In this document: positions 26,909-61,699 of the stretch, piece by piece | Position numbering within the stretch: the first letter of the stretch is position 1 | Layout of the letters: each line of letters starts with the position of its first letter | Source: Xenopus tropicalis | Lineage: Eukaryota > Chordata > Amphibia > Anura > Pipidae | Assembly: GCF_000004195.4 (NCBI RefSeq) | Contig: NC_030678.2 | Span: 75,761,404-75,825,403, forward strand | Reading direction: 5' to 3' | Length of the DNA: 64,000 bases | Program-made: the position numbers and the translations under genes | Notes under the pieces: generated by a model | What the model was told of the DNA's origin: nothing | Databases searched by the model: none | The model's input: only the letters and a program-made list of their open reading frames with translations

Positions 26909-27217
<309 letters not shown>

Positions 27218-27749
27218 CTTTATATGTTTTTGCTAGCATCCTGGGCATTTGATCTTTAATAGGGTGTGCTCCGTTTGTTCTCTCAACCCTCTTGCTCCTG
27301 AAAAGCTAATTTAGTACATGCATCCTCTGGCTCTCAGGTCAGTAGTACAGCTCTGGAGTGGAGCCAATGTGTCGCATGTAATAACTTGTCCGGGGTATAA
27401 TTTGTGAGAATTTGTTCTCTCTGGACTTGGATAGTTTCAATAATAAAGTGCAGGTAGTAATATATACACATGTTTAATAGCAAATGCCAATGTGATTCAC
27501 AGTCATTTCCACACGCTCACCACCCCCCAGTAAGGAGTTTTATTATGCTACAATAAAATATGAAATTAAAAAATTCCTTTTACTTATTGGATGATTAAAA
27601 ACACAATGTAGGCGGAGATAGATAATTATCCCTTTGCAGCCTAAATGAGCGTTCAAAGAAATGAAACTGTTATACATTTTTGCAGTCCATGAAAAAGTGG
27701 CTTTAATATAAAATATTTTCCTCTTTCCAAATTGAAAGATTAAAGACAA

Positions 27750-29438
27750 ACATTGGAGGAACTAGACAACAATGGACTCAGGGGAAAAACTTGCAACTGG
27801 AATTCCCCTACCTTTCCCCCAGTATCTTACAAAACACTGTAGAAAAGATATATACAATCAGTGGCAAACTATGACATCTAAATACCTTATATGATTTCTC
27901 CAAAAAATATACATTATATAAAATTATAGCTGAGATATGCACCTTCAGTTCAAGGGGAAACTGTCCAGAATATGATACTGGTCCTCATAGATAAACCTAA
28001 TCCCTGCATCTACGAGTGAACCAATCAAAATCACAAATTTTTCCAATAGATCCACTTCCCCACCTCAAGTAAAGCAGATAGGACAATTACAAGTAGTACA
28101 TTCATTTAAATACCTGGGAGTTGTTATCAACAAGCAACATACCAAATTTAAGGAAGACAACTTGACCCCGATAGTCCACAACCTATCCAACAAAATAGAT
28201 ACATGGACACAGCTACCCCTCACCCTGCCGGGCAGAATCAACCTACAATTAATGGTATTTCTCCCCAAATTTTTATACATTTTTCACAACTCTCCTATAC
28301 CAACCCGTGCCAAATGGTTTAAACGTATTGACTCCCTGATCCTAGGTTTCCAATGGGCAGGAGAACACCCTTGCATAAGCCTAAAAACCCTGCAAGCCCC
28401 TGTCACCCAGGGAGGCCTGGCCCTACCCAACATGAGATTATATTACCTCGCCAGCCAATTAATCTATGCACGCTGGTGGTTAACTCCACATCGGGACAGC
28501 ACATCCACACTACTCGAAGCCAATATATTGGGTTCACTCAAAGCTCTAGCAAACTTACCATACAGAGGGAACTCGCAACACTACACAACCACTACCCCTA
28601 TGTGCACAGTCATAACCGCTTTTCAAAAGGCCCGCAACAAGTATGGTCACGTTGGACACCATTATGGGGCAACTGTTCCTTACCTGACTTTACTTCCCTA
28701 CCCAACATTGCCCAATGGGCTTCCTATGGGGTTAAACAACTGCAAGATATACTAGTAAATGGGAACCTCAAACAATACCAAGAACTCAAAGAAAGCCACC
28801 AAATCCCGCAAACAATGCACTTCAATTACCTTCAACTCAGACATGCTTTCCACTCCCAATTTCCCACCAAACCAGTGGAAATGAAAGACACCCCCCTAGA
28901 AAAATACGTACGCAGGGAAAACCTCATATATGCATGTGTTCTGGAGCTGTCCAACTGTGGAGAGAAATCATTAACTATATCTTTGACGCCCTAGGCTTTC
29001 CCTGGATTCTGTCACCAATTGTTTGTCTACTGGGAGTGGCAGAGGACGTAGGTCTTACACACCACTCCAGACTTTGCTACCTCCAGCTTCTCTACTATGC
29101 CAAAAAAGCCATTCTTTTACAGTGAAAATCCTTGCCCCCCCCCAACCCTACCGTTCTGGAGAACTCTAATCAACAACACCGTTACCAATCAGAAGCTGAC
29201 CTACCACGCACGGGGTTGTCCTAAAACATTTCATGCAATATGGGGCCCCTGGTTGATCTTCCATGAAACCCTAGAAAACTCCATGGACTGCATACCACAA
29301 CAATGAAGACAAACTGGTTCCAATCTCTTTCCTTTTTCCTTACTCTTTCACCCTGCTTCCCCTCTGATTTATTTTCTTTTTTTGTACTTTTATGTTAAAT
29401 TGAAAAATGCAAAAATAAAAACTTTAAAAAAAAAAAGG
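27750..29438 (+). pseudogene. 5'-truncated, frameshifted L1/Tx1-type LINE (RT C-terminal half and 3' tail)
   Basis: Broken frames encode the later part of a LINE ORF2. MILVLIDKPN (27970s) is a remnant of the RT palm, with the YADD box no longer legible. FKYLGVVINK follows at 28108. Then come LTLPGRINLQLMVFLPKFLY, WFKRIDSLILGFQWAGE and GGLALPNMRLYYLASQLIYA. After a frame change near 28650, SLPDFTSLPNIAQWASYG appears, then a CPTVWREI-like cysteine segment at about 28940, LLYYAKKAI at 29090 and a TYHARGCPKTFHAIWGPW end at 29200-29260. A short A-rich tail follows AATAAA-like AAAAATAAAAAC (29410-29438). This is the order expected for L1-clade elements. The several frameshifts and stops mean it is dead. 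The 5' limit is approximate and no target duplication was found. Confidence 0.85.
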
Positions 29439-31469
29439 TACCTGCATCCAAATGTGCTCTGTGCACTTTCATATAGTTACGCTCAGTCCTTCCTGCCTTC
29501 TGTTTAGAATTGAGTGCTGCTGAGCCTTTTGGTGCAAGGCGCTGTGCAAATCCTGGAGCTACCTTCCCATCCTGACCAGCTCCAGGTTTCCCTTCGCAGC
29601 CTGCACACAATAATGTATGAATTCTGTTAAAAACCCAGTGCATTGTGGTGATAGCATCCAAACTTGCACTTTGCTCACTGAATCAAATTACGTGTTTGCC
29701 CCCCTACTGTGTAGTTTTTTCATCAAGTGCAGTGCACTGGAATTGGTAAATGAGCCCTGATATCTGTGGCCTTATATACCTGTAGATACAGATGGGCTGT
29801 TAACGGGTAATGCCTGGGGGTAGTGTTGGGGGCATACTTTTGGCCAATACCACAAATTATATAGATTCTTGGAGCTACTACTCCCATGATGTGGCTTATA
29901 GGTACTTTAGAATATTTTTTTTTACCAACACAAATGCTCTAAAAACCTTGGCAACAATAATATATTTTTGGTACGTTTTTTAGTCATCATAATGTGCAAG
30001 AAGAAAGAGGAGCAAGATATATATGTTGCTGAGGTTTTTCTTATCTGGACACACACAGGAATTTCCTCTGTTTAAATGTAATCATTTAATTTTTGGTAAC
30101 TGGGGCATCAGAAGATTGACTTGTCTAAGACCGCATTGAATTGGTTAAGACCTATGGTCTTTTGCTTTATAGTCGAGTGCATTTGCTGCAAAGCTATTTT
30201 ACAGCTAGTTCTTCACTAAGTCCTGTTAAAACATGTCCTGGAAAGGAGAAATCCAATTTACATTTGCATGAATCTTGATTAGTTGGAGTGTATTAATGCC
30301 ATGTAGTTTCCCTTATTCCGTAGACTCTTTTCTTGTCCTGTATTGAAATGCATGGCACAGAATCTCTAAGCAAATAAGATTACTGGTGGCTCAAGTATAT
30401 AAAACAAAAGCATGAGACAGTAATGGAAGAATAGGATATATGCAAATCCTGGATATTTTTTCTTTCTTTGATTATATATTATTATCATCTGAGGGGAGAG
30501 ATTTGAGCTTCAGAAGGACACTGTATTCTCACACAGAGAGGTCCTTGCTTCTGATGGTGGCAGTACATAGCAATTGTTCTGCACCTTCCTTATTGTTGCA
30601 TAGAAACCCACTTCTCTGGGTGCTCAGTGCAGTGTGCAGGACGGATTAACTCTGATTGTTGGATTTAACATTTTCCTCCATTATGGGGTGTATAGAGCAG
30701 TGCCCTGCAAACCCACCAGCTGCAGATTTTCTGTGGCAGCCACTTACTGCTGATCCCTGCTGGGGACAGTGAGTGCTGCTTTCTCCCTATGAATTACACG
30801 GGCAAATCATGCATGTGAAATTTAGCTTCAAGGCAAAGTGGTAAAATAAAGATTTAAATGGTTTACCATATGGTGTGCATATTCCCAAGATTATAGTTGA
30901 TTTCTGTGTTTAAAGGGGAAAAAAATAAACATTTTGTATTTAAAATTTAGATGCTAGTTATTTTTACCATAAGCAGTAAATTTGCCCATAAATTGATATT
31001 CTATTTTTTTTTAAGTGTAAGGGCATAGTGCATGCTTATTTTATGTATGTGTAGGGAACTTGCATGTGGATAAACAACAGGTAGTATTATTTAAACAAGC
31101 AAGAGTAGGACATTATCATAACATGTGTACAAGTAAGGAGTTATTATCCCTGTTTATCCTTTAAATAATGTATCATATTTTATACACAATGTCTAATTTA
31201 CAATCAGACATTTTGAAGAGCTGCCGCATTATATTAAAAGTGGAATCAATAGGGAAATAGTTTCACTTGTTGTGTGCTGAAAGTTTGCAAGTCCTGCTTG
31301 CCATCTTGTTGGCAGAGCTGCTGCTTTATGGAACAGACAGCGGGTCACTAGTTTCTCTCGCCTTGATATATCCCCATGTACATGCAGCAGATATTGGGGG
31401 TCATTTAATTCTATACATTTAATGTGTATGCAAGCTGCTTCCCTATGCACAGTGCACCCAGGTAACTAA

Positions 31470-32335
31470 TGTTCGAGAAGTGAATAAACACTCCTAAGCC
31501 CAGCGCTTCTTGATGAAGAGTCCGTGTATGAAAATCTTCAATGTAGTAGAAACTTGCTGCTTCCTCCTGGTATCAGCTCCCCTTTAGATGAGCCTCAAAG
31601 TATATATGCAGTGGTATTGATGGAAGCGCATAAAAGTGAAAACAAAAAATAAGAAATATGGTGCAGATCAAATGGAACAAAAAATATGAGTTAATAAATT
31701 AGGACGTGAGTGCTTAGTCAAAACACCAATATTAGGTAATGTGACCCCAACTCTATATATATTATAGAGATGTTATATCTGCTCACCAGAACATCATAAA
31801 AAGGAGCATGTAGATCAATCCCAGCCGGGCATTAATTGAAGAGGGATCCAATATCACAATGTACATAGGATAGAAGATAAGGCAGAAATAGTGTAAAATA
31901 GTTTAATGTAGAATAAAATCCTGCGCAATACAGGCTACTTACAATGTAGTAGTAGAGTAAAAACAATGAACATGAAGAGAGTCAGTGGTAGCTCAACGCG
32001 TTTCGCGTGCTCTCTGCACGCTTCCTCAGGAGCAAAAAGTATTCTGAGAATACTGCCTTATCTTCTATCCTATGTACATTGTGATATTGGATCCCTCTTC
32101 AATTAATGCCCGGCTGGGATTGATCTACATGCTCCTTTTTATGATGTTCTGGTGAGCAGATATAACATCTCTATAATATATATAGAGTTGGGGTCACATT
32201 ACCTAATATTGGTGTTTTGACTAAGCACTCACGTCCTAATTTATTAACTCATATTTTTTGTTCCATTTGATCTGCACCATATTTCTTATTTTTTGTTTTC
32301 ACTTTTATGCGCTTCCATCAATACCACTGCATATA
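31470..32335 (-). mobile_element. Foldback retroelement with 15-bp target duplication and hammerhead-like core
   Basis: The 15-bp direct repeat CACCCAGGTAACTAA flanks the interval at 31455-31469 and 32336-32350. Inside, 283-bp arms (31603-31885 and 32053-32335) are inverted copies around a 167-bp spacer. On the minus strand the spacer reads CTGAGGA, then a six-pair hairpin GCGTGC/GCACGC, then GAAACGCGTT, which matches the conserved core order of a hammerhead ribozyme. A 15-bp duplication points to target-primed integration, as used by LINEs and Penelope-like elements, not cut-and-paste transposition. No protein is encoded. Confidence 0.7.
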
Positions 32336-32574
32336 CACCCAGGTAACTAAGCTTGGGCACCTGTAGGAGTACCCCAAGTACCTAACATTTGCACATGCTA
32401 TTTGTTTCCATAACATTCAGCTCACAGCAAGGGTGATTTAAATATTAAAAATCTCTGTTACCAAACATAGCCTGTAGAGTCACTATTAGGGTGCATTTTC
32501 TTTCTGTATGCTGTATTAAGCATTGATGGAAATTATCCATGAACATAGTGTGGCTTCTTTACTAATGCTAGGCA

Positions 32575-44150: not shown

Positions 44151-44405
44151 AAAAGTCTGAGTGACTACTTCACTCGCATGGTAAGGCATAAAATTAAACT
44201 GTTTTTTAGATCATTCTGTGCTGTATTACATTAAATAGATACCAAGTTTGGTTGACGTGTTTCAATCCTAAACCTTCATACATTAAGCATAGAAAGAGAT
44301 GCGTAGAGGAGACATGTCAATCATTTAAGCAGGTTAATCATAACAAAGATGGGAAGGTTTCTGGTTTATAATCTATATATTTTACATGAATTTGTCTATG
44401 AAGAT

Positions 44406-44627
44406 TTTCATTCATCCAGGTCATGGTATATCTAGTATAAATAAATTTAAAGCAACTGGACTTGTTAAGTAATCATTGAAGACGTTTGGATTAGTGGAAG
44501 AGTATATATGCTGAGGACTTCCCATACCCATACGTCAGTTGAACTGAAGAAGCTGCTCGGATGAGTAGTGAAACGTCTTCAATGATTACTTAACAAGTCC
44601 AGTTGCTTTAAATTTATTTATACGAGA
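44406..44627 (+). mobile_element. 222-bp foldback retroelement with 15-bp target duplication and hammerhead-like core
   Basis: TTTACATGAATTTGT occurs at 44391-44405 and 44628-44642. Inside, AAATTTAAAGCAACTGGACT followed by TGTTAAGTAATCATTGAAGACGTTT is mirrored by AAACGTCTTCAATGATTACT…TTTAAATTT. Between the arms the + strand reads ACGTC…, CTGAAGA, a seven-pair hairpin GCTGCTC/GAGTAGT and GAAACGTC. That has the CUGANGA - stem II - GAAA layout of hammerhead ribozymes, with ACGT on both sides able to form stem III. A normal stem I is not evident, so activity is doubtful. Confidence 0.7.
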
Positions 44628-44653
44628 TTTACATGAATTTGTTATTTAACTTG

Positions 44654-44691: not shown

Positions 44692-44814
44692 GCAAGTGAA
44701 GATGTCCCGCACTCACAGGTCTTAGGTGAAATAAAGGTGTTTATTCAATCCACATCTAACGTTTCGGCTAAGTGGCTAATTGACCCAGGTGCTACCGATT
44801 CAAGCAATTTCAAT
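44691..44814 (-). mobile_element. Single arm of a GAAACGTT-type element
   Basis: On the minus strand this reads CACTTAGCCGAAACGTTAGA, then GATTGAATAAACACCTTTAT, CACCTAAGACCTGTGAGTGC, and runs into the TA repeat. The order GAAACGTT, AATAAA, then TGTGAGTGC, then TA tract parallels one arm of 27065-27217 and of 44815-45032. Confidence 0.55.
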
Positions 44815-45028
44815 AGAGTCCACAGGTATAGCGGTGCACACTGGGAATCCTTTAAAAGTTAGCTTTTATTGAACTATATAAAACTTAATACATGGAGAAA
44901 TAGGTCAACGTTTCGGCCCAAGATTGGGGGCCGAAACGTTGACCTATTTCTCCATGTATTAAGTTTTATATAGTTCAATAAAAGCTAACTTTTAAAGGAT
45001 TCCCAGTGTGCACCGCTATACCTGTGGA

Positions 45029-45032
<4 letters not shown>
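44815..45032. repeat. 218-bp palindrome, 105-bp arms, GAAACGTT core
   Basis: Left arm 44815-44919 and right arm 44928-45032 are inverted copies with an 8-nt loop (AAGATTGG). The centre reads AACGTTTCGGCCC…GGGCCGAAACGTT. Each arm contains AATAAA (TTCAATAAAAGC). The right arm ends in a (TA)n tract at 45033-45063. Confidence 0.93.
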
Positions 45033-45070
<38 letters not shown>

Positions 45071-59455: not shown

Positions 59456-59689
59456 ATATTTTACACAGTGATCCAACTTTTTTTGTAAACTGACTTGTAG
59501 ATATTGGTACAGTGCTTATTCAATAATACGGTATTCAATATAGGAGATAAATACCACAATAAGGGTAAAAAAAAATATCTCAACGTACAGTTGCAAGAAA
59601 AAGTATGTGAACCCTTTGGAATTATATGGATTTCTGCACAAATTGGTCATAAAATGTGATCTGATCTTCATCTAAGTCACAACAATAGA

Positions 59690-61318
<1,629 letters not shown>

Positions 61319-61699
61319 TCACATCAGGCAATGCTTCTTGGGAAAAGCAAACCCAAAACTGGTGTGTGTTTTTTATAGGGCAGGGCAGCTGTAACCAACA
61401 CCTCCAATCTCATCTCATTCATTAGACTCCAGTTGGCCGACACCTCACTCCAATTAGCTCTTGGAGATTTCATTAGTCTAGGGGTTCACATACTTTTTCC
61501 ACCTGCACTGTGAATGTTTACATGGTGTGTTCAATAATAACATGGAAACATTTAATTATTTGTGTGGTATTAGTTTAAGCAGACTGTGATTGTCTATTGT
61601 TGTGACTTAGATGAAGATCACATCACATTTTATGACCATTTGTGCAGAAATCCATATAATTACAAAGGGTTCACATACTTTTCCTTGCAACTGTAACTA

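Follow-up and report, generated by a model that had tools for sequence, protein, structure and literature searches.

Among described Penelope-like elements (PLEs), the closest to the one reported here are Pen2a and Pen3 of Adineta vaga, which combine reverse transcriptase (RT) and GIY-YIG sequences with head-to-head inverted pseudo-LTRs and a target duplication (PMC3846280). The parts of that paper covered here describe a tail optionally present on one inverted pseudo-LTR and palindromes at the inverted junction, both of which are also seen in the Xenopus tropicalis family examined here; the tail is 31 bp in the A. vaga elements and 133 nt in the frog family, and duplications are 8–10 bp in the described A. 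vaga copies whereas ours are mostly 13–15 bp. The same parts neither count the pairing of long and short ends nor mention a hammerhead. A second close system is Poseidon, as represented by PAc of Anolis carolinensis, for which the covered parts of PMC11167929 report a hammerhead near the region where reverse transcription starts, two internal start sites bounding a tail, and cutting and extension of both target strands in vitro. In PAc, the hammerhead overlaps the ORF start, the start sites lie 111–118 bases into the ORF, and the tail measures 30–40 nt, whereas the frog family has start sites ~390–520 nt downstream of the hammerhead and a tail of 133 nt. Finally, amphibian repeats include non-LTR retrozymes, which share with this family a type I hammerhead with a weak helix III; as described in the covered part of PMC7229834, these are non-autonomous, with RNAs of ~170–400 nt, whereas the frog family has RT- and endonuclease-encoding relatives and forms palindromic insertions.

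In the covered parts of both PLE papers, integration of these elements is described as unsettled with respect to the second strand, the origin of the inverted pseudo-LTRs, and the meaning of the tail (PMC3846280; PMC11167929). Many palindromic copies, a 133-nt tail by which ends can be typed, and a narrow range of duplication lengths make one question countable in the frog family, namely whether a single insertion invariably uses a different start site at each of its two ends.

The window, a 64,000-nucleotide stretch of X. tropicalis DNA, contains a foldback insertion at 31455..32350 that sequence reading, repeat search, and BLAST all place as 866 bp between 15-bp direct repeats. These repeats, the target site duplications CACCCAGGTAACTAA, lie at 31455..31469 and 32336..32350 (repeat search and BLAST). 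Within them, inverted arms at 31603–31885 and 32053–32335 match over 283 bp with no mismatch by direct reading, stretching to 286 bp with one mismatch by repeat search and BLAST, and enclose a spacer of 167 bp (31886–32052); the 133-bp segment 31470..31602 is present on the left side only. The coordinates and lengths given by an earlier sequence-only reading all hold. The long copy runs on the minus strand and comprises the 133-bp tail U' (31470..31602), which belongs to the long end only and to the RNA 3' side, the arm A' (31603..31885), an exact inverted repeat that relatives place sense-downstream of the hammerhead, and an upstream part (31886..32045) that starts immediately 5' of the hammerhead, extends to the arm, and aligns to relatives from R1780 (R being the sense reference, taken as one continuous slice of locus L031). 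The short copy, on the plus strand at 32053..32335, is arm only, with its outer end at the short site defined below and its inner end inside the arm region. Between the two copies, seven of the 167 spacer bases (32046–32052) have no alignment to relatives and, from the reading and a comparison of inner junctions, look like junction filler: six of the seven are the inverse of adjacent bases, and together with their neighbors they form the palindrome TATTCTGAGAATA at 32040–32052, as a snap-back filler formed in this copy would. No further copy of the element was found within the 64-kb window by BLAST. The insertion is young, since its two arms match perfectly over 283 bp and its nearest relatives differ from it by 2–3%.

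Relatives in the genome identify the family. The assembly searched, in which the window lies at G000:C2:75761404–75825403, holds 1,451,301,209 bases in 167 contigs, and the arm has at least 45 matches in it (40 of 234 candidates scored), so the arms are not private to this locus, as a local inverted duplication would have them. Of 40 stretches taken around arm matches, 8 from the second batch repeated earlier ones with wider margins, so that 32 loci remained. Longer relatives with RT and GIY-YIG frames between the same ends, which the sequence-only reading had proposed to look for, are indeed present. L031 shares both ends, has arms of 1480 bp that are 99.1% alike, and carries at its center a 190-codon GIY-YIG frame (PF01541, E 9.2e-5, above the cut-off), while L068 carries in different frames an RT piece (PF00078, E 3.3e-5, below Pfam's own cut-off) and a GIY-YIG piece (PF01541, E 2.3e-4, just under the cut-off). 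Three frames of relatives, when searched with Pfam, yielded GIY-YIG or RT but not a transposase, which would have spoken for a DNA element. The endonuclease frame is found in at least 150 scored relatives, of 6362 candidates, with open frames of up to 884 codons and some relatives sitting in frames of 770–884 codons. A frame of the family gave one protein match among 745 candidates, an RT-domain protein of X. tropicalis that is 64% identical across 55% of the query. The RT is putatively of the PLE type, by its motifs and by the features that accompany it. Judged by these predicted domains, the family is an endonuclease-bearing PLE, in agreement with the Penelope-type assignment first made from the window, and the window element is a palindromic, 5'-truncated copy of it, of a known and well-explained kind.

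The spacer had also been described as hammerhead-like on its minus strand, and here the evidence is divided. From 32033 to 31991 that strand reads, in order, GCTC (stem I, with the closing GAGC), CTGAGGA, A, GCGTGC and GCACGC (stem II) around AGAGA, GAAA, CGCGTT, and GAGC, with a predicted cut between 31995 and 31994. A purpose-made structural descriptor, whose background was 1 match in 200 dinucleotide shuffles of the window, matches two sites in the window (32033–31991, minus strand; 44544, plus strand), and the same core recurs at 25 of 27 family sites, all picked by their 5' half. Rfam hammerhead covariance models, run as the reading had suggested, gave no match at gathering scores over the whole window or at E<=10 over 31400–32400, and the 61-nt hammerhead stretch folds no better than shuffled sequence (z -0.92). 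We attribute the Rfam result to a nearly missing helix III; in the covered part of PMC7761336, helix III is described as almost absent from PLE-type hammerheads. By its sequence, the family thus has a predicted type I hammerhead of the minimal form, nearly lacking helix III, recognized by the descriptor and not by Rfam, and the one in the spacer is part of one of the two joined copies. One hammerhead pattern searched in viral contigs gave 0 matches. A possible second hammerhead in the left-only segment (TTGATGAAGAGTCC...) was rejected, the core being incomplete by eye and the descriptor silent. Hammerheads associated with X. tropicalis repeats are mentioned in the covered part of PMC3088659, and a hammerhead in a frog repeat is therefore not new.

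The direction of the two copies was read from relatives. In 19 of the 20 mapped loci, the order is hammerhead-T-A' with the spacer adjoining the arm (within 5 bases), and the remaining locus, L048, keeps the order with part of the spacer and arm missing; where the 133-bp segment is present in mapped loci, it follows the arm as U'. With both arms thus placed downstream of the ribozyme, the palindrome has the RNA 3' side at its outer ends and the 5' side at its center, and the insertion consists of two 5'-truncated copies joined head to head. Neighboring endonuclease frames agree: among 27 pairs spaced by no more than 8 kb, the orientation is head to head in 22, tail to tail in none, and shared in 5, a group that includes fragments of a single frame, so that every inverted pair (22 of 22) is head to head. 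Five head-to-head pairs lie 50–77 kb apart on G000:C2 at 161.85–162.09 Mb, possibly because a segmental duplication has multiplied a single palindromic PLE, which would make them one duplicated event; taken as one event, the count is 18 of 18. The sequence-only suggestion of two partial copies joined head to head is borne out by both lines of evidence. A tail-to-tail reading, with the arms upstream of the hammerhead, had been considered from the window alone and was ruled out since relatives run hammerhead-A'-U' in one direction and the 22 inverted endonuclease pairs all diverge.

When mapped on R, outer ends fall mostly at two places, a long end at ~2336–2353, which closes with ...GAACACTAG in young relatives, and a short end at ~2216–2228, which closes with ...GCATATA; the short end of L041 maps to 2234, and its duplication puts the true end 12 bases earlier. 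A first typing covered 33 copies, window included, of which 17 were two-armed and 16 one-armed. Eleven of the two-armed copies paired one long with one short end (the window, L031, L032, L034, L035, L041, L044, L049, L050, L052, and L058), five paired a long end with one further in (L033, L054, L055, L064, and L070), and one had a short and a truncated end (L061); none of the 17 had two long or two short ends. One-armed copies ended long in 11 cases and short in 5. If ends were drawn independently at these one-armed frequencies, long-plus-short pairs would be expected in 43% of cases, and the chance of finding 11 out of 11 would be ~1e-4, with copies taken as independent. We then predicted the far ends of four long palindromes chosen for a long end near an endonuclease pair: three fell at the short site, that of L078 lay ~40 nt further in, and none was at the long site. 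In total, 21 palindromic copies (window included) comprise 14 long-plus-short, 6 long-plus-further-in, and 1 short-plus-truncated, with no copy having two long or two short ends, and 20 of the 21 have the 133-nt tail at exactly one end. Likewise, the 40 places in the genome scored for U' include no pair that face each other across one element. The family thus has inverted pseudo-LTRs, one of which can bear a tail, and the one-sided 133-bp segment is not an accident of the window copy. The left end of L033 and the right end of L078 nearly coincide, both ~40 nt interior to the short site, perhaps a third, minor start site of reverse transcription.

Inner junctions, in contrast to outer ends, vary from copy to copy, and arms within one copy are more alike than separate copies are to each other. 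The variation means that each palindrome formed anew, and we accordingly abandon the earlier notion of a foldback element with heritable terminal repeats. In 14 short palindromes (the long L031, L034, and L058 being left out of this tally), 17 of 28 inner ends fall at R1780–1799, just 5' of the hammerhead, from which we infer an RNA 5' end at that place; subfamilies diverge upstream of R1780–1799, and a mapped end there may be partly the end of the alignment. At the junctions of L032, L035, and L049, the arms overlap by 2–3 bases. The inner end of L062 (2722) is exactly at the predicted ribozyme cut (GAGC...) and that of L067 (1927) is one base off, two cases only, which would fit a hammerhead-cut RNA as template.

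Target duplications were sought as direct repeats of at least 9 bp near the ends. They are present in 18 of the 33 copies at lengths of 10–19 bp: 14 are 13–15 bp, three are 17–19 bp (L044, with some letters overlapping the element end, L058, and L069), and one is 10 bp (L063). Of the 15 copies with no such repeat near their ends, 12 are one-armed. In eight copies (L044, L049, L050, L052, L054, L055, L056, and L058), the repeat stands 8–20 bases from the mapped end on one or both sides, the likely reason being that the long end finishes in divergent bases that failed to align. A separate search of 11 copies gave repeats of at least 14 bp in 9, and the four long palindromes have end duplications of 17, 17, 14, and 14 bp, overlap letters included; flanks of the third share two more repeats, one of 15 bp and one of 17 bp, neither of them adjacent to the element. 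The calculated chance of a 13-bp repeat in such a search is ~1e-4 per copy.

We consider it probable that the window element arose as a single insertion, by two-sided target-primed reverse transcription of an endonuclease-bearing PLE. The GIY-YIG endonuclease would cut both target strands ~14–15 bp apart, a stagger suggested by the duplications, and each exposed 3' end would prime cDNA inside the PLE leader RNA, one at the long (distal) start and the other at the short (proximal) start, 133 nt upstream of it to judge by the end positions. Both reverse transcriptases would proceed towards the 5' end of the RNA, a little upstream of the hammerhead, or terminate before it; in the window, whose ends are at 32045 and 32053, the long cDNA would have reached the former and the short cDNA stopped at the latter. 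The cDNA ends would then be joined in mid-element by end joining with the 7-base snap-back filler, giving a palindrome of two head-to-head copies whose tails point outward, with a long end, a short end, and a duplicated target. A separate start site for each strand would in this way account for the equal arms, the one-sided 133 bp, the 15-bp duplication, and the single hammerhead. Two-sided priming is favored by the RT and GIY-YIG pieces of relatives, the sense order, the diverging endonuclease pairs, the pairing of ends, the duplications, the varying inner junctions, the greater likeness of arms within a copy, and the behavior of PAc, which in vitro cuts and extends both strands and starts at two internal sites bounding the tail (PMC11167929). 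Against it count the 7 of 21 palindromic copies that are not exactly long-plus-short, the 15 of 33 without a duplication of at least 9 bp, the eight of 18 duplications that stand 8–20 bases from a mapped end, and the lack of a start-site difference between strands in PAc in vitro; moreover, the arm region could be copied twice only from two RNAs or with strand displacement.

The chief alternative is the self-priming model proposed for rotifer Penelope elements in the covered part of PMC3846280, whereby one cDNA (or antisense RNA) folds back and copies itself into an inverted arm. It permits inner junctions with any loop size, and the palindrome exactly at the window's inner junction (32040–32052) resembles those of the rotifer elements, but it predicts a second long end or random stops, whereas in 14 of 21 copies the second arm ends at a single fixed site, and two long ends never occur together; we hold it to be unlikely. 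More doubtful still is transcription of a master palindromic locus into a foldback RNA, inserted by target priming on one side only and truncated at its 5' end: this would leave a duplication and two ends, the one full and the other truncated, yet truncation would not land at one fixed site, and inner junctions vary among copies. Long perfect inverted arms between direct repeats would also suit an element with terminal inverted repeats (a DNA transposon or MITE) or an inverted duplication of local origin. This alternative is hardly credible and already contradicted: the ends are unequal and not symmetric, relatives encode RT and GIY-YIG, with no transposase in the three frames scanned, and arms occur at many loci, many with their own target duplications.

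Beyond two-sided priming of this one insertion, the counts raise a broader proposal, on which we are evenly divided: that each integration event uses both internal start sites, one per cut strand, so that in double-ended insertions a long end is matched with a short one and the stagger is almost constant at 14–15 bp, that this would replace the self-priming model for PLE palindromes, and that copies ending at the ribozyme cut would be traces of a hammerhead-cut RNA template. In the covered parts of PMC11167929, PAc start sites in vitro are alike on both strands, which is not decisive because either strand may take either site, and mutation of the PAc hammerhead leaves in vitro insertion unchanged; the lizard data do not prove pairing of start sites in one event. 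A one-long/one-short rule is not stated in the covered parts of PMC3846280 and PMC11167929, subscription papers and Repbase lying outside the search. Since the former already has an optional tail on one inverted pseudo-LTR, the asymmetry itself is not new; the newer parts are the long/short regularity over 21 copies and the 133-nt tail length, the kind of element being known.

Several other features of the window were recorded. Pfam scans of six window frames gave a Tc1-type transposase and nothing else above cut-off; the corresponding transposon, at 60557–61318 on the minus strand, is interrupted, has HTH domains, and is flanked by 97% inverted repeats (59586–59800 and 61482–61695). Open frames at 27991–29125, two of which were scanned with no Pfam match, are presumably LINE-like. 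Near-perfect palindromes at 27058–27225 (95%) and 44813–45034 (97%), each beside a (TA)n run and centered on CGAAACG motifs resembling hammerhead 3' halves, are probably more PLE palindromes, and another GCCGAAACGTTAGATG motif at 44755–44770 on the minus strand is followed by an AATAAA-rich stretch resembling a PLE hammerhead tail. A second hammerhead-bearing foldback, of 232 bp at 44381–44642, differs in sequence and shares the same plan: 15-bp direct repeats TTTACATGAATTTGT at 44381–44395 and 44628–44642, a 40-bp extension on its left end only, and a single hammerhead at 44544 on the plus strand.
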